Virus record (IMG/VR): IMGVR_UViG_3300020404_001158
Span: 1-48,185 of that record
Source: a virus
Length of the DNA: 48,185 bases
Reading direction: 5' to 3' (one strand)
Within the stretch, counting starts at the first letter, position 1. Each line of letters begins with the position of its first letter. Both the position numbers and the translations under genes were made by a program. This document shows positions 1-29,637 of this stretch, one piece after another. The notes under the pieces were generated by a model. It was not told the DNA's origin and made no database searches. It saw only the letters and a list, made by a program, of their open reading frames with translations.

Positions 1-299
1 TTAAGTGTGTTATAATATCTGTATAAAGAAGGTAAAAAGTATTATGATTTAATTTCTTATAAACGTTGATATCTTATGCCAGGTTAGCGAGCGTAGCATG
101 AAACGCGGAGTTTGTCAACCCACGGGTCGCGATTTCCTAACACACAGGGTCGCGAAGTACTTGTAGTCTTATAAGTACAATGTTACAGTATTGTAACAAT
201 GAGTCGTGGATAGGACATATATACTACTGTGATTTCTCGACGAGCTTGCATCTAGTCGAGAATAGTGCTATACTATAAGTATTCTAATTCATCTCGACT
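1..299. other. gene-free region with inverted repeats
   Basis: I see no convincing gene here. A TATAAT box at 11-16 followed by GTATAAAGAAGG resembles the promoters of the small-gene cassettes downstream. GGGTCGCGA occurs twice (124-132 and 148-156). GTACTT/AAGTAC (157-162, 173-178) and TGTTACA/TGTAACA (181-187, 192-198) are inverted repeats. TTCTCGAC/GTCGAGAA (234-241, 255-262) is an 8-bp hairpin built from the repeat word of the following array. A 22-codon frame at 98-166 was not accepted because nothing supports it. Confidence 0.6.
269..274 (+). promoter_or_regulatory. putative -10 box TATACT
   Basis: TATACT lies 25 bases before the ATG at 300, the same distance as in the downstream cassettes. 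It directly follows the TTCTCGAC/GTCGAGAA hairpin. No clear -35 box is visible. Confidence 0.4.
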
Positions 300-467
300 A
301 TGTACGACGATTTTTACGATTGGTGTGATCTCGACTATACTTCTCAAGGTGATCTAGACGAGAGTTCTCGATCCAATCAAGACTACCTACAAGATCTCGA
401 CGAGGAATGGTATTCTAGACGAGACACCCAAGATTTCTACGAGCTTTCTCTCATACATTACGCATGA
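300..467 (+). CDS. small acidic hypothetical protein
   Basis: The frame encodes 55 residues beginning MYDDFYDWCDLDY, very rich in Asp and Glu. Three repeat words read as LDE or LDY in this frame. It sits at a normal distance behind a TATACT box, and its stop overlaps the next start as ATGA (464-467). Those are the same layout rules as the better supported small genes further on. Against it, the frame lies inside the ATCTCGACGAG array, so the repeats themselves may create it. I recognise no family. Confidence 0.35.
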   Translation: MYDDFYDWCDLDYTSQGDLDESSRSNQDYLQDLDEEWYSRRDTQDFYELSLIHYA

Positions 468-679
468 ATCTCGACGAGAATGCACACATGCGTGAAGCGT
501 ATGCACGTGATCTAGTCGAGCGAGCCTGCACATACATAGGATCTCGACGAGTCTCTCCACAAACATCTCGACGAGCCTGTACACGTGACGCACATACATC
601 TCGACGAGCTCGCACCCGCATGCATAGTGCATATATGATCTCGACGAGCCTGAGCATACACGTATCATATTATACGTAA
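464..679 (+). CDS. doubtful small ORF across the repeat array
   Basis: The frame encodes 71 residues and starts in an ATGA overlap with the preceding small ORF. The first 25 residues look plausible, but the rest is Arg/Ser/Thr-rich (TSRRA repeated) because the repeat word is read in a shifted frame. It is probably a by-product of the DNA repeats. It is listed only because of the coupled start. Confidence 0.18.
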   Translation: MNLDENAHMREAYARDLVERACTYIGSRRVSPQTSRRACTRDAHTSRRARTRMHSAYMISTSLSIHVSYYT

Positions 680-778
680 ACTAGTTCGAGATTACATGTA
701 TACATCATAACATGTGTGACACATCGAGACTGGCACAGTGTGACACTTTGAAAATTGGATTTTTATACATACCTTTGT

Positions 779-10288: not shown

Positions 10289-10468
10289 ATGCAAAAAAAT
10301 TCCGCAGAAAATTTTTCGCCCATAGAGGTCGATCCCATAACTGGGAACTTTATGATCGATCTGCCTGAGTGGATGGTTAACGATCTTGACTGGTATGAAG
10401 GAACTGTGCTAGAATTAAAGTTATCCGATGAGGATGAAATAATTTTAAGAGAAAAAAGGGATGAGTAA
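10289..10468 (+). CDS. small conserved phage protein
   Basis: The product has 59 residues: MQKNSAENFSPIEVDPITGN, then FMIDLPEWMVNDLDWYEGTVLELKLSDEDE (with internal breaks) and IILREKRDE. The order of short strand, P-E-W, acidic turn, strand and charged tail resembles a small swapped-hairpin (AbrB-like) fold, but this is a guess from pattern. It overlaps the next gene by eight bases. Confidence 0.65.
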   Translation: MQKNSAENFSPIEVDPITGNFMIDLPEWMVNDLDWYEGTVLELKLSDEDEIILREKRDE

Positions 10469-10661
10469 CACAGTCTATCATTTCTATGCAAAAGATGAGT
10501 GCATCGTTCATAATGTGCCCTCAGAAGATTTTCAAGTTACATGGACTACACTCAAAGCAATGGTTGGTCTGATGCAGACATCTTATACAGAAGAAGACTT
10601 ATCATATATTAAATTACCTGAGAAGAAAGAAGAAAATATACTTGGTGACGATTCATATTAA
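10461..10661 (+). CDS. small conserved phage protein
   Basis: The product has 66 residues starting MSNTVYHFYAKDECIVHNV. A strand-turn-strand start is followed by a helix (FQVTWTTLKAMVGLM) and an acidic tail. It resembles small proteins found next to structural genes in marine T4-like phages. The start overlaps the end of the 10289 gene. No function is known. Confidence 0.7.
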   Translation: MSNTVYHFYAKDECIVHNVPSEDFQVTWTTLKAMVGLMQTSYTEEDLSYIKLPEKKEENILGDDSY

Positions 10662-10690
10662 TTGACAAGCACTATATAATAGTGTATGAT
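10662..10690 (+). promoter_or_regulatory. sigma70-type promoter with embedded palindrome
   Basis: A perfect -35 TTGACA (10662-10667) and TATGAT (10685-10690) are separated by exactly 17 bases. The spacer holds CACTAT-ATA-ATAGTG (10670-10684), a perfect inverted repeat placed like an operator. Confidence 0.7.
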
Positions 10691-13151: not shown

Positions 13152-13565
13152 ATGCCAGCCTACGACTCCCAACAACTAAGATCACGTGAATTTAGAGATA
13201 TAAGTCTGTCTTTTGAACCACATCCCGTTACAAAAGATATACCTATGTTGAGAAATACTGCGTGTATTCGTAAGTCAGTAAGTAATATCGTTCAAACTAT
13301 TCGTGGAGAAAGATTTTTTGATAGTCTCTTCGGATCAAATGTTCGTAGATCTTTATTTGACTTTGTTGATTTTGCCACAGCATCAATAATTGAACGTGAA
13401 ATTACAGAAGCAATACTTAACTTTGAACCAAGAGTCAATGATTTAACAGTTAGAGTGGATGCTGATCCAGATGAAAATCAATTTGAGGTAAATGTAAACT
13501 TCAGTTTGATCGGAGAATCTGCACCAACACAAGATTATACGTTCCTATTAGAAGCAACAAGATAA
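13152..13565 (+). CDS. gp25: baseplate wedge subunit gp25
   Basis: The product has 137 residues, close to T4 gp25 (132). GP25/gpW-like features are ITEAILNFEPRVNDLTVRVD (about 88-107), with the conserved E-P-R-V, and an N-terminal segment that places it in the wedge core. In T4-like phages gp25 binds gp6 and gp53 and helps anchor the sheath to the baseplate. Here it directly precedes gp6, the usual marine arrangement, whereas in T4 it lies elsewhere. Confidence 0.93.
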   Translation: MPAYDSQQLRSREFRDISLSFEPHPVTKDIPMLRNTACIRKSVSNIVQTIRGERFFDSLFGSNVRRSLFDFVDFATASIIEREITEAILNFEPRVNDLTVRVDADPDENQFEVNVNFSLIGESAPTQDYTFLLEATR

Positions 13566-15468: not shown

Positions 15469-18400
15469 ATGATACAAACTGGTATCGAATCGAGAGTAAA
15501 GGTTCACCAACTGATAGAGGGACAATTACCCGAATATATTTTAGATCAAAGTCCCAAGACAGTAGACTTATTTCAGCAATACTACCGTTCACAGGAGTAT
15601 CAAGGAGGTCCTATTGACCTAGTTGATAATCTTGATCAGTATTTAAGTCTTGATCAGTTAACACCGCAAGTTATTGTAGGTGTTACTTCTCTTACTGCAG
15701 CTTCTTCTTCTACTGATGATACAATTTCAGTCGTTAGTACAAGAGGATTTCCTAATGAATATGGTCTTCTTAAGATTGATGATGAAATAATTACATACAC
15801 TGGATTAACTACAAACACTTTTACAGGTTGTGTACGTGGTTTTAGTGGAATAACATCATACCGAGATGTACTTGATTCAGAAGAACTTGTATTTAACACT
15901 TCAGTTAGTGCAAATCATGATAATGAATCTCCTGTACAAAACTTAAGTTCTTTATTCCTAAAAGAATTTTACAAAAAGATAAAGTATTCATATACACCTG
16001 GTTTAGAAGATGTAAATTTTGTACCTGAAGTAAATGCAGGTAATTTTATCAAAGAAGCAAGATCTTTCTACCAAGCAAAAGGTACAGAGGAATCTTTCAG
16101 AATATTATATAAAGTTTTATTTGGTGTAACACCATCTGTTATTGATTTAGAAACATATTTGTTAAAACCATCTGATGCAGAGTATATCAGAAGAGAAGTA
16201 GTTTTAGTTGAAACAATATCAGGAAATGTTAATAATTTAGTAGGACAGACAATTTATAGAAAAAACAATTTTAGAACAAAAGCAGCAGTTTCTGAAATTG
16301 AAATATTAACTAGAAATAATAAGACATATTATAAGTTAGCACTCTTTATCGGATATAGTAATAAAGATCTAATTGAAGGAGATTTTGCAGTAACTCCAAA
16401 TACAAAATCTATAACTAATGTTTCAGCTGGATCTTCAGTAATTACAGTTGATTCCACTGTTGGGTTTACTCCAACTGGAACTATTCTTAGTGGTATTAAT
16501 ACCATAACATATACTGATAAAACATTAAATCAGTTTTTAAATTGTTCTGGAATAAGTGCTAATATTACTGCAACTGATGATATTAGATCAGATGATACTA
16601 TAATTGGTTATGAAAATGGAGATCTTACAAAACCAGTTGAATTAAGAGTAGCATCAATTATATCAGATATAAATCTTGCAAAAGATGCGGGTCTTTCATT
16701 AGTTAATGAAAAAATAACGGTAAAAGAATTAGGAGATATAATTGATAATCCTTCATCTGCTGCAGAAAGAACAGATAAAGAAAGATTTGCTAACTCTTTC
16801 ATCTATAATACTAGTTCAAGTTTTGAGTGCTCTGGTATTAATACAAGTGCAAAACAGTTTACTTTAAAATCTTCAATTGATAAAGCAAGTTTAAGATTAA
16901 ATGATCGTGTTGATATTATAAACGATAGCACTAAAGAAGTGCAATTAACAAACGCTAAAGTTACCGCTATTGATTTTGTAGATAAACAAGTAACATTACA
17001 ATATACAGGATTTACTACCGATACAAGTATCCCACATTCGATTAGAAGGGTTCCAAAGAAGGTTACAAGTAAAATTGTACCACTACAATATTCAGACCTT
17101 TTTGCAGACGTACAGAACACTTATAGCGAAGATCTTGATTTTGGTTTTTATGGTGAAGAGTTCATGTATGTGGCATCTAACTCTCTTCCATCTTACACAT
17201 TTAGACAAGATACCGTACCATCAACACCATCTATAGTGGTTGGTACTGCCATAACATTTATTGGTGCAGGTACCACTGAAAGCAATGCATTATTAACCGA
17301 TACAGGAGAATTAGCATATTCTATTATTAATTTTCCAACAGAAGTTCCATTTTTAACTGGAGATGAAGTTGTTTATGAACCAGAAAGTACAGCGATTACA
17401 GGATTAGATACTGGAAAAACATATTACGTTAGAGTATTACCAAATAAACAACAAATTAAATTATATTCATCTAATTCCTTTATTCAAGGAGATTTAAATT
17501 TAGAGTTTGAACCTTTAAGTGTTGGAATTGGAGGTAAACATACATTTTCTCTATTATCTGTTTACAATAAACAAATACAACCACAAAAACTTCTTAGAAA
17601 GTTTCCATTAATACCTAGACAAAATGATGGATTAGATACCACCACAGAAACTGTTGGTATGATGGTAAATGGAGTTGAAATTAAGAATTACAAGTCCCAA
17701 GATAAAATTTATTCAGGTCCTTTAACATCTGTAAACGTAGTAAACTCAGGAACTGGATATGATGTAATAAATCCACCAGTTGTTGAGGTTTCTAATACTG
17801 GATCAGGAACAACAGCACTTGTACAACCTGTTCTTAGTGGATCAGTTGAGAAAATTTTAGTAGATCCTCAAACAAAAGAATTAGACAAAGTTATTTCTCT
17901 CAGTATAACTGGTGGAGGACCTGGTAATGGTGTTGCTTTAGAACCAGTTGTTGAGCAATCATTCTTAAGTGCTAGTTTTGATGCTAGATTATTAACATTT
18001 GGTGGTGGTATAGGAGAATCTGCAGAAACTATCACATTTTTAGGAGATCATAATTTTGCTGATGGAGAAGAGGTTGTATATCGAACAAATGGTAATGCTG
18101 CATTAGGAATAGGAACATTTGCAGGATCAGATGCAGATCAAAATAGATTCTTAGTAGAAAATACAAGATACATTGCAGAATTTGTAAATGCACAAACAAT
18201 TAGATTATATTTTTCTGAAAATGATTTTAGAGCTGGTATTAACACAATTGGATTTACAACTACCTCTAATTCTGGTATTCATAGATTCAGAACCTTTAAC
18301 GGTAAAAAGACTCTAAAATCAGTTAGAGTTATAGAAGGTGGTTCTAACTATCAAAATAGAGAGTTAAACGTTAAACCAGTTGGTATTTCAACTATAGATC

Positions 18401-21400
18401 ATCTTGTTAACTTTAATAATCATGGATTTAAAGAGGGAGATTTAGTTGAATATCAAAATACAGGAACTGTTATATCTGGATTAGTTACTACTCATCAATA
18501 TTATATCTTTGAGAAGAGTAGAGATCAATTTAGAGTTGCTGATGCAGGTATAGGTGGAACTATCAGAGATAATTTTGATAGTAGACTTTATATTAAATTG
18601 GACTCTGTTGGGTCTGGATTCCACCAATTTAAATATCCAGATATAAAGTTAAATATTAATGTTTCGTTCGGTGCAGCGGGTACAGGGGTTATCACAGCGA
18701 CACCTTATGTTAGAGGTAGTATTGTTGATGCTTATCTTTATGAAACTGGAACTGGTTATGGAAGCACAACATTAAATTTTGAAAAATCACCTAGTGTAAG
18801 TGTTAAAAATGGTAAGGGTGCTTCATTATATCCTGTTGTGGTTGGTGGTAAACTCATTAGAGTTGATGTTAGATCAAGAGGATCAGAATATTTTTCTGTT
18901 CCTGAAGCAGTGGTTACTGGCGATGGTAGTGGTGCTGTTGTTCGTCCTATTATTAGAGATGGGCAACTTATTGAAGCAGTTGTTATATCTCAAGGAACAA
19001 ACTATACACAAGCAAAAACTAGCATTAGTGTTACATCAGCAGGTAAAAATGCAATTTTATCCAGTAGTGTTAGATCTTTAACATTAAATGATGCTGAGAG
19101 ACATGGATCTGAATATCTCCATCCTACTCTTGATAAAGGTTTAGAGTATGTAAATATTTCATATTCAAATGAAATAGCATCTGGAGAATTCAATGATACA
19201 GGAACAACACACTCTCCTATAATTGGATATGCTTATGATGGACACCCAATTTACGGTCCTTTCGGATTTAGTGATCCTCTTGATCCTACATCAGGAGTAA
19301 GACCATTAGAAACAGGTTATAAATTAGATCCTTCTATTGTTGTAGATCGTCCAAGCGGATTTTCTGATGGATTCTTCATAGAAGATTACACATATGATGC
19401 AACTGGAGATTTAGATGTTCATAATACAAGATTTTGTAAAACTCCAGAATATCCAAATGGAACTTATGCATACTTCGCAGGTATAAAAACAGATGGATCA
19501 TTTACTCCACAATTCCCATATTTTGTAGGAAAAAGATATAGATCTTTAAATCAATTAGACAGCAAAGATCAAACTTTTGATTTAAATGCATCAGAATTAG
19601 TTAGAAATACATTTCCTCATCAATTAGGTGTAGATGGATCAAGAAATGATTTCATTATTGAATCTCAAAGTTTCTTCAGCCAAGAATCATCAGTTGAATC
19701 AGTTTCTAAAGGATCAATTACTAGTGTAGATATTAGAAATGCAGGAGTAGATTATAAAGTTAATGATGTAATTAATTTTGATGATACTAATACTAATGGT
19801 GGTGGTGCAGGTGCAATAATTTCTGAAATAGAAGGTAAAACAATAACTTCTATTGCATCATCTGTTTCAGAATTTACTGATTGTACTTTACTTTGGAGTA
19901 ACAATAGCATAACTGTTAAAGTTGATCCTTTCCATACATTTAATACTAATGATGTAATTTCTATAAGTGGATTATCAACTTTTGTAGATCAAATTGCAGG
20001 ATTAAGAAGAGTTGCAATATCTACAGAAAACTTCAACATATATCAAGAATTACCTGCGAATGGTTCTTCTGGTATCATGACAGACATTTATGTTTCTAGC
20101 ATACCACAATCATTATCAATAGGATCTACAATTGGTATTGGAACAGAAGTTTTATCGGTACTGAATATATTTGCTGAGAGAAATATAATTAGAGCAAAAA
20201 GAGGTGTAACTGGTACATCACATTCAACCTCTACTAGAGGATTTGTTTTCCCTAATTCATTTAAGATTGATATTGAATCTCCTTTCTTTGAGTCTTCATT
20301 GAATGAAAAAGTATTCTTTAATCCAACAGAATCTGTTGGTGTTGGATCTACTGCAGGTATTGATAATAAAATAGAATATCCTATAGGAGATAAGAATTAT
20401 GATATTTCAATTCCTAATCAAAGTATATTCTTACCTAATCATCCTTTCCGTACTGGAGAAAGAGTAATTTTAAGAAAGAATGCAGGAGGTAGTTCTATAT
20501 CTGTAGCAAATACAGAATCTTCTGCAACATTTGATATTGGAGATACAGATCAAAATCTTTTTGTTATTAATAAATCTTCAGACCTTATTGGTATTGTAAC
20601 TCAATCTGGATTAACTACATCTACAAATGGTTTATTCTTCTTTAATAATGGTTCTGATAATTATGAATATTCTCTAGAACCCACTAAAAATAAAATCATT
20701 TGTGTAGTTCAAAAAAATGATTGTGTAATATCAGTATCAACTGCACATTCCTTAAATGTAGATGATAAGGTTTCATTAACTGTTGTTCCTAACAGATCTG
20801 TTGGAATAGGAACTTCCACTCAAGTAAGAGTTAAGTATAATTTTGATATAGAAAAACTTGTTATTGATCCTATCGGATTTACTTCAACTTCGATTGATAC
20901 TTTAGATAATATTATAACTCTCAATAATCATCCATTTGTAACGGGAGAAAAAGTTTATTATAATGCTACTGATGAGGTAGCAACTGGATTAGAACCTGGT
21001 CTATTTTATGTTTACAAGATTGATAAGAATAGATTCCAACTTTCTCTTACATATGAAGATTCTGTTGCATCTCCTCCTAAAACTGTTTCTATAGGATCTA
21101 CAGGTGGAGCAGAACAAGAGTTCTCTGCTATAAACCCAAGATTATTCCCAACCAAAGGTAATGATGTTGTATTTGATTTATCTGATCCTACATTACAAGG
21201 ATTTAAGTTTAATTTATATACAGATCAATCATTTGAAAATCAGTTTGTATCTGTTGCAAATACAACGACATTCTCAACTTCAGGTGTTGGAACTGTTGGT
21301 GTAACATCAACTGCTTCATTTACTTTAACTTATACTGATTCTTTAATTGATGTTGTACCTGATCCTACACAACCATTATTCTATAACGTAGAAAGAGGTG

Positions 21401-24400
21401 GATTTATATCAACTGCAGATTCTACAGTTATTGATTATAATCAGATAACATTTGATAATAGTAGGTATGATGGAACATATTCTGTTGTTGGTGTAGCTAA
21501 TACTTCATTTGTTATATCATTACTTCAAGATCCTGAGTTAGAAGTTTATACTCCAGATAATACTAGCATAATGAGGTATTCTACTAACTCTAAGAATGCT
21601 TCTGGTTCGATTTCTAAAGTACAGATTATTTCTGAAGGTAATGATTATAAACAATTACCTGGTATTTCTAGTATAACAACTTTAAATGGATCTGATGCAA
21701 TATTATTTGCTCAATCTTCAACAGTCGGTAAGATAAAAGAAATAAGAGTTATTGACCAAGCATTTGAATATAACACAGACAAATCACTTAGACCTGAAGC
21801 AAATGTAGCTCCTACACTTGAGTTAAGATCTAATTTAACAATAACTGATGTAGATATAATTGATGGAGGAGATAATTATACAACACCACCTGAAATTGCT
21901 ATTGTAGATTCGGTTACTGGAGAAAGAATTGATGATGGTATATTAACAACTGAGGTTCAATCTAGTTCAGTTTCATCTGTTAACATATTTGAGCAACCAT
22001 CAGGACTCAACTTTAATAGTAAATCATTATTTGCTGTTAAGAACAGTAATGGTGTTGGTATATCAACCATACAAACATCGTTAAGTGGTATAGTTACATG
22101 TTTCTTAACCACACCCCTACTAGGATTTAGTACTTCTATCTTTACTGTTGGAGAACAAATATTTGTAGAGGGAATTACTAAAAATGGAATAGGTGGTAGT
22201 GGATTTAACTCTGAAGATTATGGATTTAGATTCTTTGATGTAATATCTTATGAAAATGTAATTCCTGCAAAACTTAAGTTTAGTGTTGCGGGTTTAACAA
22301 CTAATCCTGGTTTGGCAGATACTACTCAAGGATCATTTGCAACGATTGTTAAGAGATCTGAATATCCTGTATTTAAAGTTACTCAAGACAAGAGTAAATT
22401 TATTCAAGGAGAACAATTATTTGTTGAAGGTTTACCAACAGATTTGAATGTAACCACTGTTTTACCAGATTATATTAAAACTTCTGGAAAATTTGAAGTA
22501 AAATCTGGAGATACTATCAGAGGAGTACAATCTGGTTCAACTGGAACTATATCAAAAATTATTAAGAGCGATGCTAAATTTGATATTGGTTTCTCTGTAA
22601 GAACAAATAGAGGTTGGAAGAAAAATACAGGACAACTTAATAACGATATTCAAGTTTTAGCTGATAATGATTACTATCAAAATCTATCATATTCAGTTAA
22701 GAGTCCTATTCAATTTAAAGATTCAATAGATGTAATTAATCGTTTAGTTCATACTACTGGTTTAAAAAACTTTGTTGATGTTGGATTAGCAACTAATACT
22801 TCAATTGGTATTGGATTAACAACCGTAAAATCTTTAACATTTACAGATTTAATAGGAGATTCTAGAGTTGATACAATTTATGGGTTTGCTCAAGCAAGAG
22901 ATGCTGATACACAAATTATAGAAAATAGAAATTCCTCTAAATTCCTTGAGTTTAGATTTAAGAGTTTTGTTGATAGTGTTATTTGTAAGACAAACAGAGT
23001 TCTTGTAATTGATGATGTAAGTAAACAATTTACAAATAAAGAAAACGTAAATGATTCATTCATAGATTTGGATGAATCTGGAAAAGACTTTGCAAGATAC
23101 TTAGTTCAAGTTAGAAGTACTGATAATACACAAAATGCTATTCATGAAATAATTGTATTACATGATCCTCAATTTGAATCAGCATTTACTCTAAGAAAGG
23201 GTTACTTATCATCTGCAAGTGAATTAAGTCCATACTCTGGCAATGAATATAATTGGGTAGAAGATGAGTTTGCAGAAATAACAGGTAATGTTGATCAATT
23301 TGATATTTTATCTTTAAGATTCACTCCTGAAGACGTATTCAATATTGATTATGATATCAAATTTATTAAAGATACATTTAACGGAAACGTAGTTGGATTA
23401 GCATCTACATCTATTGGTTTGATTAAAAACCAATCAACAAATGCTATTGTAGGAGTTGGTTCTACTAATACAATACTCGAATACAGTTCAAATGTATTTG
23501 ATGCTATGCATGTTCATTTACATTTAAATGCAAATGATCTCCATACTCAAAATTATACAGAATTATACATTCATCATGATGGTACAGATACTTACGTATC
23601 AGATTACTATTTTGATTCTGATAGTTCTCCATTTAGTGGCAATGATTTCTCAAACTTTGATGCAGGTATTACTACAGATGGAAAACTTAGATTATCATAC
23701 ACAAACCCACTTTCTGTTCCAGTAACTGTTAGAGCGAATGCTGTTGGATTTGGTGCTACATCTTATGCATATTCAGTAGTTGTTGCTAGTAAGACTTCAG
23801 AACATTACTACTTTGGACAAGGATCAGGTAAAGGTTATTATATTACTGGTGGGCAATACAATACTGTTACTCAAGCACCAGTTCTTGAATTTGTTCGTGG
23901 ATTAACTTATACCTTTGAACAAAACGACACTTCAAATAATACTCATGCAATATACTTCAGCGAAGATCCAGATGCATATGGTGGTTCTAATAGATACGAA
24001 ACTGGTGTAGTATATCGTCTTGATGGAGTTGTAAAAACTTACTCACAATATGTTATTGGATTCATTGCTGCTACAACTCGTAGCGTAAGTATAACAGTTG
24101 CAGAAGATGCACCTGATTCACTTAATTATGCATGCCAAGCACATGGATATATGGGAGCTCCTATTAATGTTATTGGAAATGCATTAAGATTTAAGATAGG
24201 TTCTTCTCAACCAGATGGAGATGAAAGAAGTGCTTTCTTCTCAGGTAATTCTTCAGTTGGAGTTGGAGAAACAACAATCTTCAGTGCAAATGCTTCTTTA
24301 ATAAACAGCATCAAATCATTAGTTAGTGTAAGTTATGGTGCAACATTTGCTTTACATCAAATATTAACATTAAGTCCTGATACTACAAATACATATTCAA

Positions 24401-27400
24401 CACAATATCCTTTCTTATCCGTAGGAAGCACAACAGGAATAGGAACATTTGGTGCAATCGTTGATGGTTCAGATGTTGCAGTTAAATTCTATCCCGATTC
24501 TTCGATATCTGGAATTGTTACTATCAAAGCATTTAACGAAGTATTTTATGAAGAATTAGATCAAGAAAATGATTATGTAGATATTTCTTATGGTGCAATA
24601 AAAACTCAAGAATTTGGAATTGGTTTATTTGATGCAACTAACAGTTCTAGAATTAATAAAACATCATTCAGAATGGATTATAAGGATACTCCTATATTCC
24701 AAAAATTCTGGGATCCTGCCGATACTACAGTTTTGAATAAAGAAACTGGTGAATTTACAATAAACAATCATTTCTTTGAAACTGGAGAAGAATTAATTTA
24801 TAGAACAGGAACATCAATAGCTGGTATTACATCTACATCTATTGGTATTGGACAAACTGCTGATTCTGTTGGAGTTGTAACTACTAAATTACCATACGTA
24901 GTTTATGCGATTAGAAACACAAATGAAAAATTCCAAATCGCTACAAGACCTGAATATGCATCTGCAGGAATTGCAGTAACCTTTACAGACGAAGGAACTG
25001 GTAATAAGCATTCATTTGAAATGGTTAAGAAGTTGGAGAAAGCAGTAATTGCTGTTGATGATGTAATTCAATCTCCAATTGCTTATACACCGATTGTTTA
25101 TGATTTAGAAGCAAATGGTGGGCAAATAGGAACTGCAACAACAGTGTTCTCAATGAGTGGTATTTCTTCAATATCAAATGGAGATATACTAAAAATTGAT
25201 GAAGAATTTATGAAAGTTGGTGGTGTTGGTTTAGGAACAACATCAGTAGGACCGATAAGCGATGGATCAGTAAAACTTGTTGAAGTTGTAAGAGGATATG
25301 TTGGTACTGCAGCTACACTTCATACTGATGGATCATCAATAAGAATTTACAGAGGTTCATATAACTTCTCTGGACAAAATATATTCTTTACTGATCCACC
25401 AAAAGGAAGTGGTTTGTTAACTGTTAATGAAAGTAATCTACCTAAAGGATTCTCTGAATTTAATGGAAGAGTATTCCTAAGAAAAGATTATACAAGTAAT
25501 TTAATATATGATGATATTTCTAATGAATTTACAGGTATTGCTCAAACATTTACAGTTAGAAATTCAGGAGTTAATACAACAGGTATAGAAACTGGAAGTG
25601 GTTTAGTTCTATTAAATGGAATATTCCAAACTCCAACAACAGATAATAATGCAGGAAATAATTTCTTCTATAAGGATGATGGGACACAATCTGATATCGT
25701 ATTTACTGGTATAACATCAACTGATGGTACTCCTGTAGTTTCATTAGAAGATCCAAACCAAAATGCTTTCCCTAAAGGTGGATTGATTATTTCTCTAGGT
25801 TCTACAACTGGTTTAGGTTTTGCTCCTCTATTAGGTGCTGATATACTACCTGTTATTGGTGCAGGTGGTTCTATTTCAGGAATAATTGGTATTCCAACCT
25901 TCACTACACCTGGATATAACATAAGCACTGCTTCATTTGATTATCAAACTGGAATATTAGATGTAACTACATCAAGTGCTCATAATCTTAATGCTCAGAA
26001 TGAAGATGTTTACCTAGACGGTATGAAATTTACCAGTGCAGTGGGTATTATAACTTATGGTAATTCATCTCAAGGAAATATATTCCCAATTACTCAGATA
26101 GTTGATACAACTAGAGTTAAAGTAAAATTAGGAATTAGTACAGTAGATCAAACTTACGTTGGATTTGGAACATTATATCCATACTATAATTCTACTTCTA
26201 GAGCGTTTGGATCAGGTTATAATGGAAGAGTTGCAATCGGAATCAGTGTATTTGAACCTGGACACACAGGAGATACAGCAAATATAACTGCAGAGGTTCT
26301 TACTAACGAACATAAGTTCTGGTATAGCACTCCAAATAACATTCATTATGGTGGACAATACTTACATACCTTTGATTCTGCATCTACAGGTGCTGTAAAC
26401 GTTCAAAGTGGTTCAGAAGTAGGTAATCAGAAAACACCTAATGGTGCTTCATATGATCCAATATCTGGATTACTAACATTATCATTCGCAGGTGCACATG
26501 GAATGAGCACTAATGATACTATTACTCTTGATGAAGGTAGTATTAACTTTAAGTGTGCAAGAGATCATTTTGCCACTGTTCATGCTTATCCTCGTCCTCA
26601 TGATCCAATTGCAGGAGTAACAACTGCAGTTACTGTAACTTCAACAACTGCATTTACTCTTAATGTTGGTGCAAGTTTAAATTCTAGTGTATCAATATCT
26701 ACAGCATCTTATGAACCATCAACAGGTGCCCTTGTATTAAATCTTGGAGCAGGACATGGATTTACAGCTGCAGGAATATTAACAACCAGTAGTGCCTCTT
26801 ACAATGCCTCTACAGGTGTTCTAACAGTTAATACAACCACTAATCATGGAATGGTTACTGGAGAAAGAGTTAGATTTAATACTGAATCATTTAGATTTAC
26901 TCGTGCATCTGATAATAATTTAAATGCTTTAGATTTACCCACAGAACTTGATATAGCAGCTACAAGATGGTTAGCAATTACTAAAGTTGATGCAGATACA
27001 TTTACTGTTAATGCAAACTTTGATACTGATACATCTGCACATACATTTGTAAGTGTACAACCTGCTAATATTAGAACTGATGGTCCGAATGGTTCAATTG
27101 GTATTCATACAAGAAGTTTAACCTTTACTTGTGCACAAGATAATCATGCAACATTCCATTCTTACCCAAGAGCAACTGATCCAATATACGAAGCAGTTTT
27201 AGGTATAGGTGCGACAACAACAGATACAATTACAGTAAATGCAGGAACATCTGTAAACGGAACAGGTGGACAACTTAAATTTACTATCGTAGATGGTGGT
27301 ACTGGATATGTTAATCCTGATGTATTAGTTGATGAACCAACATATACTGACTTAGATATCATTGGAATTTCTAGAAGAGGAATAGGACAAACTAGCGAAA

Positions 27401-29637
27401 CTGGTATAAACGAATTAATCAATCTTAAATTAGGTCCTAATTCTGCTCCAATATTTGCAAATAGGTTTGCAGACGCTGCTGATTTAATCGAAGCAAATAA
27501 AGAATTTATTGCTGACGTTTCTGTTGGAGAAATGTTAGATGTATATCCAACATTCAGTGTTCCTGGCGGAAGTCAAAATTGTAAGGACGATGTTATTGAT
27601 GTTCTTGAAGCAGTTGCATTTAACTTAAGGTTTGGTGGTAATGATGAAACATGGAATGCTGCTAATCTGTATATTACAGGTGCACATGTTGCAGGAGAAG
27701 AGGAAGAATCAATATTTGTATTCCATGCTGCTCGCGATTTAGCAGGTAAGGTTATTAATAACGTAGCGATTGGTAAGTCTGATTACACAACAAGAGATCA
27801 GGTATTTGATCTAACAATTACAGCAGATCCTGCTGTTGGATATAACACAGATCCTAATGGTTGTGCTAACGTAAGATCAGCAATTAATTCATTCGTTGGT
27901 ATTGTTACTAGTGCTATCGGTTTTGGTACAGTAACATCTAAGAAATCATTTGCTCCTGCTAAGTTCTTTGAAGTTTCTGATTTCTCAATTAAAGGTGCAG
28001 GATATGCATTCCAACTTGGAGACACATTTAGACCTGTTGGATTAGTAACAGCAAAAGGACTGAGAGCACCACTAAAACAATTTGAATTGGAAGTTGTTGA
28101 GACATTCTCTGATAAGTTTGCATCTTGGCAATTTGGACAATTAGACTTTATTGATCCTATTAGCAATCTTCAAGATGGTGTTAGAACAGTATTCCCACTA
28201 TTCTATAATGCTGAGTTGGTTAGTTTCCAAAAAGATACTAATGATGTAGATTCATTACTAATTGATATTGATGCTGTATTAATAGTATTCATTAACGGAG
28301 TTTTACAAGAACCTTCAAAAGCATATCTATTTGATGGAGGATCTTCTATACAATTCCTTGAACCACCAAAAGTAGAAGATAATATTTCTATATTCTTCTA
28401 TAATGGAACTAGAAATATCGATAGTGTAGAAACTGATATCTCAGAAACAATAAAAGTTGGAGATTCTCTAACTGTTAGAAAGGCAACAGGTGTTTCAACA
28501 TCTGTAAATCAGTCTGAAGATAGAATTGTTTATGATATAGCAGCTTCAGATAGAATTGAAACCAATGTTTACAGTGATGTTGGTATTGATGAGTTCAATG
28601 ATAGAAATGTTAATTGGACTAAGCAGAAGAGAGATCTCTTCATTAATGGAAGAAAAGTTTCCAAAGCAAGAGATTCTATTGAGGGAATGGTATTCCCAAC
28701 TTCAAGAATTATCAGAGATGTTAATATTGGAGATACTGATATTCTTCTTGATAATGGACAATTCTTTAATTATGAAGAAAATGAATCTAGTGTAGTAACC
28801 GCATACGTAGATGCTGTTGTATTAGATGATATTAATACTGTTTCTGCTGCTGCAACTGCAACAGTTGATTCAAGTGGAAAGGTTACTGCAACAACCATAA
28901 CTAATACAGGTTTTGGTTATACAACAGCAACTGTTGATATTAAATTCTCATCTCCTAAGTTTATCGGAGTGGGTATTGGTACAACAGCAACAGGAACTGC
29001 TACCATTACAAATGGATCGGTTTCATCAATAAGTGTTTCTAATGTAGGTCTTGGATACACAAACTCACTTAATTTGCCTGTTGCTCCTCAAATCATTATA
29101 CCTCAACCAAGACCATTAAATGAGGTGGTAGGAAACATTCAAACTGTTCAAGGTAATACTGGTATCATAACAGGTATTTCAACAGTCGCAGGTATTGGAA
29201 CTGATTTAGCGATCAAATTCTTTACCGATCAGACTCTTGATTTACAAGTTGGTTATCATATTGTTGTTACTGATACAACAGTTGGAAGTGGAGTTACCTC
29301 AATTTACACACATAATAATGATATTATCGGAGTAGGAACAGAATTTGTTGATAACATTTATAGGGTTCATCAAATTCCTGTTGCAAATGAAATTGTATGT
29401 AATATTAAGTCTGATACAGTAACTACTGGCATACAGACACTTGGAACTTCGATATATAATCCTAACGGATACTATTCTTGGGGAAGAGTTGCCAATTTGG
29501 TAAGAACTTCTGAACCTATTGCAATAGGAATCTCTGGTAGAACTGTTACTGCAGGTCTCTCAACATACCCTCTAATTCAAAGAAGAGGTTACGGTTTGAG
29601 AGATAATGGAGCGATCAGAAAAACTCTCCCAGATTAA
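15469..29637 (+). CDS. giant baseplate/virion protein at gp7 position
   Basis: The product has 4722 residues without a break, and AGAGG before the start serves as ribosome binding site. Synteny (gp6, this, gp8) places it where T4 has gp7 (1032 residues). The N-terminal 250 residues include a helical block (KEFYKKIKYSYTPGLEDVNF, about 165-185). The rest is mostly beta repeats: five copies of a TGE-x-V-Y module (near nt 17350, 18060, 18440, 20940, 24780), GxGY repeats, a YHYH domain (about 1240-1340), a cupredoxin-like domain (about 2780-2905, ligands H2826, C2889, H2892, M2895), and a Y-x-x-x-TG-x-L-x-L series (nt 25920-27260). The C-terminal region repeats INGVLQEP-type modules. It is probably a wedge arm or fibre-like baseplate component. 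Exact equivalence to gp7 is inferred. Confidence 0.8.
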   Translation: MIQTGIESRVKVHQLIEGQLPEYILDQSPKTVDLFQQYYRSQEYQGGPIDLVDNLDQYLSLDQLTPQVIVGVTSLTAASSSTDDTISVVSTRGFPNEYGLLKIDDEIITYTGLTTNTFTGCVRGFSGITSYRDVLDSEELVFNTSVSANHDNESPVQNLSSLFLKEFYKKIKYSYTPGLEDVNFVPEVNAGNFIKEARSFYQAKGTEESFRILYKVLFGVTPSVIDLETYLLKPSDAEYIRREVVLVETISGNVNNLVGQTIYRKNNFRTKAAVSEIEILTRNNKTYYKLALFIGYSNKDLIEGDFAVTPNTKSITNVSAGSSVITVDSTVGFTPTGTILSGINTITYTDKTLNQFLNCSGISANITATDDIRSDDTIIGYENGDLTKPVELRVASIISDINLAKDAGLSLVNEKITVKELGDIIDNPSSAAERTDKERFANSFIYNTSSSFECSGINTSAKQFTLKSSIDKASLRLNDRVDIINDSTKEVQLTNAKVTAIDFVDKQVTLQYTGFTTDTSIPHSIRRVPKKVTSKIVPLQYSDLFADVQNTYSEDLDFGFYGEEFMYVASNSLPSYTFRQDTVPSTPSIVVGTAITFIGAGTTESNALLTDTGELAYSIINFPTEVPFLTGDEVVYEPESTAITGLDTGKTYYVRVLPNKQQIKLYSSNSFIQGDLNLEFEPLSVGIGGKHTFSLLSVYNKQIQPQKLLRKFPLIPRQNDGLDTTTETVGMMVNGVEIKNYKSQDKIYSGPLTSVNVVNSGTGYDVINPPVVEVSNTGSGTTALVQPVLSGSVEKILVDPQTKELDKVISLSITGGGPGNGVALEPVVEQSFLSASFDARLLTFGGGIGESAETITFLGDHNFADGEEVVYRTNGNAALGIGTFAGSDADQNRFLVENTRYIAEFVNAQTIRLYFSENDFRAGINTIGFTTTSNSGIHRFRTFNGKKTLKSVRVIEGGSNYQNRELNVKPVGISTIDHLVNFNNHGFKEGDLVEYQNTGTVISGLVTTHQYYIFEKSRDQFRVADAGIGGTIRDNFDSRLYIKLDSVGSGFHQFKYPDIKLNINVSFGAAGTGVITATPYVRGSIVDAYLYETGTGYGSTTLNFEKSPSVSVKNGKGASLYPVVVGGKLIRVDVRSRGSEYFSVPEAVVTGDGSGAVVRPIIRDGQLIEAVVISQGTNYTQAKTSISVTSAGKNAILSSSVRSLTLNDAERHGSEYLHPTLDKGLEYVNISYSNEIASGEFNDTGTTHSPIIGYAYDGHPIYGPFGFSDPLDPTSGVRPLETGYKLDPSIVVDRPSGFSDGFFIEDYTYDATGDLDVHNTRFCKTPEYPNGTYAYFAGIKTDGSFTPQFPYFVGKRYRSLNQLDSKDQTFDLNASELVRNTFPHQLGVDGSRNDFIIESQSFFSQESSVESVSKGSITSVDIRNAGVDYKVNDVINFDDTNTNGGGAGAIISEIEGKTITSIASSVSEFTDCTLLWSNNSITVKVDPFHTFNTNDVISISGLSTFVDQIAGLRRVAISTENFNIYQELPANGSSGIMTDIYVSSIPQSLSIGSTIGIGTEVLSVLNIFAERNIIRAKRGVTGTSHSTSTRGFVFPNSFKIDIESPFFESSLNEKVFFNPTESVGVGSTAGIDNKIEYPIGDKNYDISIPNQSIFLPNHPFRTGERVILRKNAGGSSISVANTESSATFDIGDTDQNLFVINKSSDLIGIVTQSGLTTSTNGLFFFNNGSDNYEYSLEPTKNKIICVVQKNDCVISVSTAHSLNVDDKVSLTVVPNRSVGIGTSTQVRVKYNFDIEKLVIDPIGFTSTSIDTLDNIITLNNHPFVTGEKVYYNATDEVATGLEPGLFYVYKIDKNRFQLSLTYEDSVASPPKTVSIGSTGGAEQEFSAINPRLFPTKGNDVVFDLSDPTLQGFKFNLYTDQSFENQFVSVANTTTFSTSGVGTVGVTSTASFTLTYTDSLIDVVPDPTQPLFYNVERGGFISTADSTVIDYNQITFDNSRYDGTYSVVGVANTSFVISLLQDPELEVYTPDNTSIMRYSTNSKNASGSISKVQIISEGNDYKQLPGISSITTLNGSDAILFAQSSTVGKIKEIRVIDQAFEYNTDKSLRPEANVAPTLELRSNLTITDVDIIDGGDNYTTPPEIAIVDSVTGERIDDGILTTEVQSSSVSSVNIFEQPSGLNFNSKSLFAVKNSNGVGISTIQTSLSGIVTCFLTTPLLGFSTSIFTVGEQIFVEGITKNGIGGSGFNSEDYGFRFFDVISYENVIPAKLKFSVAGLTTNPGLADTTQGSFATIVKRSEYPVFKVTQDKSKFIQGEQLFVEGLPTDLNVTTVLPDYIKTSGKFEVKSGDTIRGVQSGSTGTISKIIKSDAKFDIGFSVRTNRGWKKNTGQLNNDIQVLADNDYYQNLSYSVKSPIQFKDSIDVINRLVHTTGLKNFVDVGLATNTSIGIGLTTVKSLTFTDLIGDSRVDTIYGFAQARDADTQIIENRNSSKFLEFRFKSFVDSVICKTNRVLVIDDVSKQFTNKENVNDSFIDLDESGKDFARYLVQVRSTDNTQNAIHEIIVLHDPQFESAFTLRKGYLSSASELSPYSGNEYNWVEDEFAEITGNVDQFDILSLRFTPEDVFNIDYDIKFIKDTFNGNVVGLASTSIGLIKNQSTNAIVGVGSTNTILEYSSNVFDAMHVHLHLNANDLHTQNYTELYIHHDGTDTYVSDYYFDSDSSPFSGNDFSNFDAGITTDGKLRLSYTNPLSVPVTVRANAVGFGATSYAYSVVVASKTSEHYYFGQGSGKGYYITGGQYNTVTQAPVLEFVRGLTYTFEQNDTSNNTHAIYFSEDPDAYGGSNRYETGVVYRLDGVVKTYSQYVIGFIAATTRSVSITVAEDAPDSLNYACQAHGYMGAPINVIGNALRFKIGSSQPDGDERSAFFSGNSSVGVGETTIFSANASLINSIKSLVSVSYGATFALHQILTLSPDTTNTYSTQYPFLSVGSTTGIGTFGAIVDGSDVAVKFYPDSSISGIVTIKAFNEVFYEELDQENDYVDISYGAIKTQEFGIGLFDATNSSRINKTSFRMDYKDTPIFQKFWDPADTTVLNKETGEFTINNHFFETGEELIYRTGTSIAGITSTSIGIGQTADSVGVVTTKLPYVVYAIRNTNEKFQIATRPEYASAGIAVTFTDEGTGNKHSFEMVKKLEKAVIAVDDVIQSPIAYTPIVYDLEANGGQIGTATTVFSMSGISSISNGDILKIDEEFMKVGGVGLGTTSVGPISDGSVKLVEVVRGYVGTAATLHTDGSSIRIYRGSYNFSGQNIFFTDPPKGSGLLTVNESNLPKGFSEFNGRVFLRKDYTSNLIYDDISNEFTGIAQTFTVRNSGVNTTGIETGSGLVLLNGIFQTPTTDNNAGNNFFYKDDGTQSDIVFTGITSTDGTPVVSLEDPNQNAFPKGGLIISLGSTTGLGFAPLLGADILPVIGAGGSISGIIGIPTFTTPGYNISTASFDYQTGILDVTTSSAHNLNAQNEDVYLDGMKFTSAVGIITYGNSSQGNIFPITQIVDTTRVKVKLGISTVDQTYVGFGTLYPYYNSTSRAFGSGYNGRVAIGISVFEPGHTGDTANITAEVLTNEHKFWYSTPNNIHYGGQYLHTFDSASTGAVNVQSGSEVGNQKTPNGASYDPISGLLTLSFAGAHGMSTNDTITLDEGSINFKCARDHFATVHAYPRPHDPIAGVTTAVTVTSTTAFTLNVGASLNSSVSISTASYEPSTGALVLNLGAGHGFTAAGILTTSSASYNASTGVLTVNTTTNHGMVTGERVRFNTESFRFTRASDNNLNALDLPTELDIAATRWLAITKVDADTFTVNANFDTDTSAHTFVSVQPANIRTDGPNGSIGIHTRSLTFTCAQDNHATFHSYPRATDPIYEAVLGIGATTTDTITVNAGTSVNGTGGQLKFTIVDGGTGYVNPDVLVDEPTYTDLDIIGISRRGIGQTSETGINELINLKLGPNSAPIFANRFADAADLIEANKEFIADVSVGEMLDVYPTFSVPGGSQNCKDDVIDVLEAVAFNLRFGGNDETWNAANLYITGAHVAGEEEESIFVFHAARDLAGKVINNVAIGKSDYTTRDQVFDLTITADPAVGYNTDPNGCANVRSAINSFVGIVTSAIGFGTVTSKKSFAPAKFFEVSDFSIKGAGYAFQLGDTFRPVGLVTAKGLRAPLKQFELEVVETFSDKFASWQFGQLDFIDPISNLQDGVRTVFPLFYNAELVSFQKDTNDVDSLLIDIDAVLIVFINGVLQEPSKAYLFDGGSSIQFLEPPKVEDNISIFFYNGTRNIDSVETDISETIKVGDSLTVRKATGVSTSVNQSEDRIVYDIAASDRIETNVYSDVGIDEFNDRNVNWTKQKRDLFINGRKVSKARDSIEGMVFPTSRIIRDVNIGDTDILLDNGQFFNYEENESSVVTAYVDAVVLDDINTVSAAATATVDSSGKVTATTITNTGFGYTTATVDIKFSSPKFIGVGIGTTATGTATITNGSVSSISVSNVGLGYTNSLNLPVAPQIIIPQPRPLNEVVGNIQTVQGNTGIITGISTVAGIGTDLAIKFFTDQTLDLQVGYHIVVTDTTVGSGVTSIYTHNNDIIGVGTEFVDNIYRVHQIPVANEIVCNIKSDTVTTGIQTLGTSIYNPNGYYSWGRVANLVRTSEPIAIGISGRTVTAGLSTYPLIQRRGYGLRDNGAIRKTLPD
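19150..19478 (+). other. YHYH domain within the giant protein
   Basis: Residues about 1240-1340 read SPIIGYAYDGHPIYGPFG (1249-1266), a later FFIEDYTYDATGDLDVHN and then TPEYPNGTYAYF (1325-1336). These are the signature blocks of the YHYH family, known from secreted bacterial proteins. The function of the family is not established. Confidence 0.8.
23790..24180 (+). other. cupredoxin-like domain within the giant protein
   Basis: Residues about 2780-2905 contain LEFVRGLTYTFEQ, NNTHAIYF (His2826) and then NYACQAHGYMG (Cys2889, His2892, Met2895). His plus Cys-x-x-His-x-x-Met is the ligand set of a type 1 copper centre. Confidence 0.65.

Follow-up and report, generated by a model that had tools for sequence, protein, structure and literature searches.

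The question raised by this locus is what a cluster of short near-palindromic words, about 0.5 kb long, does for the phage that carries it. The cluster lies near the left end of a 48,185-base virus record (the window, analysed over its whole length). A block of small genes directly follows it, and large baseplate and tail genes start at about 13.5 kb. The open reading frames (ORFs) of the window and their matches place this fragment among the T4-like cyanomyoviruses. The initial annotation, made from the letters alone, had proposed an operator cluster, a replication or partition site, or a platform for a genome-organising protein. As judged from sequence comparisons, the array is real, conserved, and under selection, and in function it resembles known phage operator clusters. 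We consider it probable that the array is an early operator cluster of T4-like cyanophages, bound by a sequence-specific and probably repressing regulator.

Our census of the array (positions 234..648, no strand assigned) agrees with the six exact 11-mers and roughly eight variants first reported. Fourteen sites were found: six exact copies of ATCTCGACGAG, starting at 394, 468, 541, 565, 598, and 638, and eight plus-strand variants with one or two mismatches, starting at 234, 250, 291, 328, 352, 413, 433, and 510. The core CTCGNCGAG occurs seven times in the window, always within 236–648, against an expectation of 0.03 from dinucleotide-preserving shuffles (0/100 shuffles reached seven). The array is also the densest site, with only two variant words elsewhere in the 48 kb, and the words of relatives are clustered likewise. 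The dyadic core and the irregular spacing (13–110 nt) are both real. A search for helical phasing of the words gave no clear period, and the spacing peaks are probably common by descent. Where the initial annotation fell short was the length of the unit, which exceeds 11 nt: the logo from at least ninety-eight non-redundant loci reads approximately AAT-CTCGACGAG-ATT, and some relatives have the right half, (T)ACGAGAT, alone. Both orientations are present in arrays. Upstream of the small ORF described next, the matches listed include 224 sites with a central A and fifty-eight with a central T, a bias of about 4:1 towards one orientation.

A small acidic gene inside the array had been overlooked. 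This ORF of 55 aa (MYDDFYDWCDLDYTSQ...LSLIHYA; 300..467, plus strand) has words embedded in its coding sequence, most of them in one frame, a correction for the left part of the array (300–467) to the claim that copies fall in different frames. The start and end of the ORF are conserved in at least ninety-eight loci, at lengths from 129 to 216 nt, with the consensus MYDDYDLDY...LDEDYARD...LAYRHYA. It carries a net charge of about −13.5 for every 50 aa, and stops are frequent in the other frames. The conserved ends together with these stops argue that the ORF is real, and its homologue in P-SSM2 is annotated as PSSM2_098. The predicted structure is of low confidence (pLDDT 60), and we thus make no claim about DNA mimicry.

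A coding repeat alone was rejected as the source of the words, because they also occur in non-coding DNA, in a promoter spacer, and in both orientations, and because the choice of LDE codons is abnormal. When the window was aligned with two relatives (contigs L171 and L221), 82 per cent of word columns were invariant, compared with 46 per cent of spacer columns, and the spacers contained indels. The mostly non-coding part of the array 3′ of the ORF (468..692, no strand assigned) follows the same pattern, in that its words stay and its spacers differ. Words that are conserved while spacers drift indicate that the DNA itself is selected, as had been suggested. The tripeptide LDE in the acidic ORF is encoded as CTCGACGAG in 149/178 cases across all loci listed, and in 3/68 cases in other genes of the same loci. 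Because these loci had been fetched by CTCGACGAG, we recounted in the fifty-two loci whose fetching pair lay outside the ORF or that were found otherwise, and the figure was 60/85. It would be unusual for operators to lie within a gene and to dictate its codons. Just 3′ of the array, at 755–795 of the window, a motif (TATACATACCTTTGTATGGTTTGTTCGAG) is common to L171 and L221 and is partly present in S-SM2 and Bellamy.

The words also hold fixed positions on a predicted promoter. In the window, the sigma-70 promoter of the small ORF (TTGCAT-N17-TATACT; 246..274, plus strand) has the word CTAGTCGAG in its spacer at 252–260, and the word search found another, ATCTCGACTAT, overlapping the start codon (291..301, plus strand). 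Among the ninety-eight non-redundant loci listed, eighty-eight have a sigma-70 promoter (at least 8/12 matches) no more than 120 nt upstream of the ORF. The spacer contains a word in seventy-seven of these eighty-eight, whereas 2000 trials of random word placement gave a mean of 16 and a maximum of 28. Within the matches listed, the spacer word begins 0–2 nt after the −35 hexamer in 76/77 loci that have one, and another word ends 2–4 nt before the ATG in 76/98 loci listed. Repeated specific sites thus overlap a predicted sigma-70 promoter, as they do in phage operator clusters. A leftward sigma-70-like promoter, TTGACA-N17-TACGCT (90..118, minus strand), was read from the sequence; it points away from the array into AT-rich DNA. 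It is conserved among relatives as TTGACA-N17-TACGCT/TAGAAT, with an exact TTGACA in 42/90 loci listed. In the isolates examined, with and without the array, this promoter faces no gene, and the left-hand genes are all on the plus strand.

We scanned IMG/VR for paired words. The same cassette was found in at least 118 phage loci with a looser ORF pattern (at least ninety-eight after dereplication) and in at least ninety-seven with a strict pattern of the acidic ORF, from both marine and freshwater phages. Many low-GC contigs from the sea and from lakes have five to eight words per 600 bp among the matches listed. The order of the cassette is constant: an AT-rich stretch with the leftward promoter, words, the sigma-70 promoter with its spacer word, a word 5′ of the start, and the acidic ORF. 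The array lies upstream of the gp25/gp6 baseplate genes and, as the initial annotation had proposed checking, is kept at the same locus in many phages. Isolates with the array include S-SRM01, S-T4, S-SKS1, and P-SSM2, and it is also present in the single-cell phage AG-345-F15. The last two were chosen by their AbrB-like gene (see below) and not by the word, and both have a perfect TTGACA-N17-TATAAT with a word in the spacer. The named relatives P-SSM4, P-TIM68, Bellamy, and S-SCSM1 are without the array. The flanking promoters and ORF2, a small gene that follows the acidic ORF in some phages, are kept in S-SCSM1, Bellamy, S-SM2, and AG-345-O18. In the baseplate region of the window, positions 15469–29637 form a single ORF of 4722 aa, and single ORFs of similar size adjoin gp6 in Bellamy and S-T4.

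In genomes of 96–241 kb, copies of the exact word fall almost entirely into one to three clusters, which on long contigs lie within about 6 kb; nothing here points to a genome-organising protein or to a partition site. Further arrays occur within 6 kb in S-SRM01 and several contigs, some of them directly 5′ of start codons; in S-SRM01 and a second genome (G009) they lie near the starts of other small genes. Several words in secondary arrays have no obvious promoter. Contig L236 has secondary arrays between small genes at 10531–10663 and 13319–13416 (88.1 and 90.9 kb in S-SRM01), as do L277 and L279, and one such array ends a few bases 5′ of the start codon of a 62-aa gene (MQTASVIPISKKAKNRF...). 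A separate stretch with sixteen CTCGNCGAG words in 600 bp (L080, 4589–5190; GC 0.64) is not among the acidic-ORF loci and is probably unrelated.

An operator cluster is the best fit of the three roles first proposed, given the word in the sigma-70 spacer and the shared locus. The regulator would bind words of 9–15 bp (AAT-CTCG-W-CGAG-ATT, with half-site ACGAGAT). With one word occupying the interval between the −35 and −10 elements of a strong sigma-70 promoter of host type, and a second just 5′ of the start codon, binding would most likely repress the early promoter. Since near-consensus promoters should fire unaided, a protein bound in the spacer is more likely to repress than to activate. 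Repression would extend to the acidic micro-gene and to ORF2 in the phages that have it. The additional words, which flank the gene on both sides and also lie within it, could increase occupancy of the region or allow bound complexes to bridge; the leftward, divergent promoter may be another of their targets. The early promoter would be strong on entry and shut as the regulator accumulates. Early promoter activity, protein binding, and repression are steps that we infer. As a counterpoint, a symmetric dimer site would not need the orientation bias of about 4:1 among upstream words.

An origin of replication is a serious rival, although it is compatible with an operator role and concerns the left flank with or without words. 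In the form that we think rather unlikely, the words would serve as iterons in a cyanophage counterpart of T4 oriE, with RNA from the leftward promoter priming in the AT-rich stretch and an initiator bound to the words. Repeats, small genes, and a promoter of early mode are features of T4 oriE too (PMC3016281), and as far as sequence can tell the locus shares the oriE-type arrangement of an early-type promoter adjoining AT-rich, unwinding-prone DNA. AT content reaches its maximum, 74 per cent, at −400 to −300 relative to the ORF, immediately beyond the leftward promoter, which has no gene on its strand in annotated isolates. This peak is in the top few per cent of the genome in long contigs, and in the top 1 per cent in most. 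DnaA-box-like words are eight-fold denser in the left flank (0.51/kb) than elsewhere (0.06/kb), with clusters at the array locus in S-SKS1 and at the same locus in P-TIM68, and some left flanks have tandem repeats of about 20–22 bp. However, DnaA boxes are present at the locus in only 3/13 long genomes, and as a universal feature they were rejected, being found in a minority of loci. The turn in GC skew that the initial annotation had proposed looking for is lacking at the array: the skew is monotone in S-SKS1, S-SRM01, and S-T4, with no turn. The irregular spacing of the words is unlike that of evenly spaced iterons, and secondary arrays lie between ordinary small genes. Array-free phages retain the AT-rich/promoter part, and thus the words are not needed for it. 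The suggestion of a replication site keeps its AT-rich flank and occasional DnaA-box-like words but loses the skew turn. Repeats such as CTTATAAACCTTCTCTAATACT, along with TTATTGAGAAT words, were seen in the AT-rich left flanks of S-SKS1 (L237, 7880–7985) and contigs L155, L189, and L447.

If the words acted instead in the transcript, as a 5-bp hairpin with a GAC loop or as a protein site over the ribosome-binding region, the word that ends just before the ATG, the predominance of one orientation upstream, and the arrays that other genes of S-SRM01 and G009 have directly 5′ of their start codons would all make sense. We judge such RNA-level control quite improbable, because numerous words stand 5′ of the promoter or in its spacer, hence outside its mRNA, because both orientations occur, and because no Rfam family matches the array. 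It is less probable still that the array serves a host factor, as a platform or as a decoy titrating it, in place of a phage regulator. The array is found in phages of marine and freshwater picocyanobacteria and its promoter is of the host-type sigma-70 class, but the word is replaced between phages whose hosts are similar, and a fixed host protein is thus not an easy explanation. A packaging (pac) or recombination site seems hardly credible. The S-T4 record has a terminal repeat of about 9.5 kb containing the array, but word placement is tied to the promoter and start codon, and arrays are not enriched within 1 kb of contig ends (18 observed and 16.3 expected, an indirect test). In that record (MH412654) the repeat spans 1–9.5 kb and 171.6–181.1 kb, and the array is thus present twice, which may reflect an assembly overlap or real redundancy.

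What might bind the early operator cluster? The phage's own AbrB/MazE-fold protein, encoded 3–10 kb downstream, is the leading candidate for the regulator of the array, and we propose it tentatively. In the window it is a small protein of 59 aa in the phrog_661 family (10289..10468, plus strand, the start being set by family alignment). The family emerged from a comparison of eight array genomes with five others: among twenty-seven array-enriched families it is the only one present in all eight and in the window, and its single match among the five is a distant one, in S-CAM7. Where at least 9 kb of sequence was available, all of the array loci (16/16) have the gene downstream, and at a limit of 8 kb 21/22 do. 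When the search began from the protein, 9/10 loci with at least 8.5 kb upstream had an array (eight with the usual word, and L447 with a variant word). The array is present in P-SSM2 and AG-345-F15, two of four other phage records that encode the protein; in the remaining two, Sf-CH8 and ACG-2014f, and in L408 as well, the protein is present and no clear array was seen. In P-SSM2 the array occupies 66.03–66.17 kb and the AbrB-like protein is PSSM2_102. This association may stem from shared ancestry. Word usage covaries only weakly with the sequence of the AbrB-like protein (Mantel r 0.20), a signal confounded by phylogeny, and L434 uses a different word, yet its AbrB is close to that of L219. 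A scan of genome contigs with a single protein as query, made with a host or prophage origin in mind, found no relative.

The AlphaFold model (pLDDT 85.6) shows the swapped-hairpin AbrB fold, and the predicted beta-beta-alpha-beta-beta arrangement is the likeness to AbrB, MazE, and SpoVT. The best Foldseek matches are MazE/SpoVT/AbrB, with probability up to 0.99 though E is about 0.1. PF04014 is matched weakly by 9/18 members (best 9.7e-5), and the window protein scores under the curated cut-offs (14.6 against 24.7 for PF04014, 13 against 28.3 for TIGR01439). Unlike AbrB, MazE, and SpoVT it is acidic, and the basic residues with which AbrB contacts DNA appear to be missing; by inspection of the family alignment, an N-terminal K/R is the only conserved basic position. 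It is a candidate DNA binder.

The word itself appears to vary. In S-SKS1, L434, and L447 the array is built from TACGAGAT, which corresponds to the right half of the usual word. L131 (3830–4300) has about eight copies of another word, TATTAAC(ATATATG), in the same layout, with DnaA-box-like words, divergent promoters (the leftward one and TTGACA-N17-TATAAT), and an acidic ORF (MYYTISDLFDDEELALILDSL...). In L308 (2100–2400; 54.6 kb in S-CAM7), CGCAG[CT]ATA repeats with alternating purine-pyrimidine spacers stand directly before ORF2 and are perhaps another word class. A speculative reading, which we would not favour on a few cases judged by eye, is that a control module upstream of gp25/gp6 keeps its layout while its recognition word is swapped between lytic T4-like cyanophages. 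The forms would be CTCGACGAG, CTCGACTAG, and TACGAGAT, with TATTAACATAT (L131) and CGCAG[CT]ATA (S-CAM7) possibly unrelated. If true, such re-specification would resemble immunity-type switching, and phages infecting one cell together could thereby run separate early programmes or shut each other out.

We did not find a description of the array in the cyanophage literature searched (PMC3037559, PMC8557907). Little is understood of how the abundant T4-like cyanophages control their early genes, and the array offers a cis-element that is both concrete and widespread, together with a named candidate protein in P-SSM2, a model phage in culture. The locus is also a place to test where these phages begin replication, and it has relevance for the repeats of T4 oriE, whose role is unexplained.

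T4 oriE lies near gene 5/6. The likeness to oriE with repEA/repEB extends to direct repeats, but those of oriE are 12 nt long and evenly spaced, whereas the words here are irregular dyads, one of them in a promoter spacer; the T4 literature leaves the role of the oriE repeats unsettled (PMC3016281). A relation between repEA/repEB and the acidic ORF is a candidate at most. The PeSL cassettes of T4-like phages, as cited in PMC4503421, are small promoter units in shuffled gene blocks; going by that citation, they combine a promoter with a stem-loop where the array has words, and are otherwise alike as small promoter units. The operators and stoperators of Cluster A mycobacteriophages such as L5 and Bxb1 are many short sites for one regulator (PMC6550527). 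They number 20–30 genome-wide, whereas the array is one cluster with a few arrays nearby. The array phages are, as far as known, lytic and T4-like, the core of the word is dyadic, and the repressor is a candidate only. Like the array, Cluster A stoperators have some sites in the early promoter and a motif that varies between related phages, and they lie mostly in one orientation (PMC6550527); one orientation relative to transcription likewise predominates among the words here.
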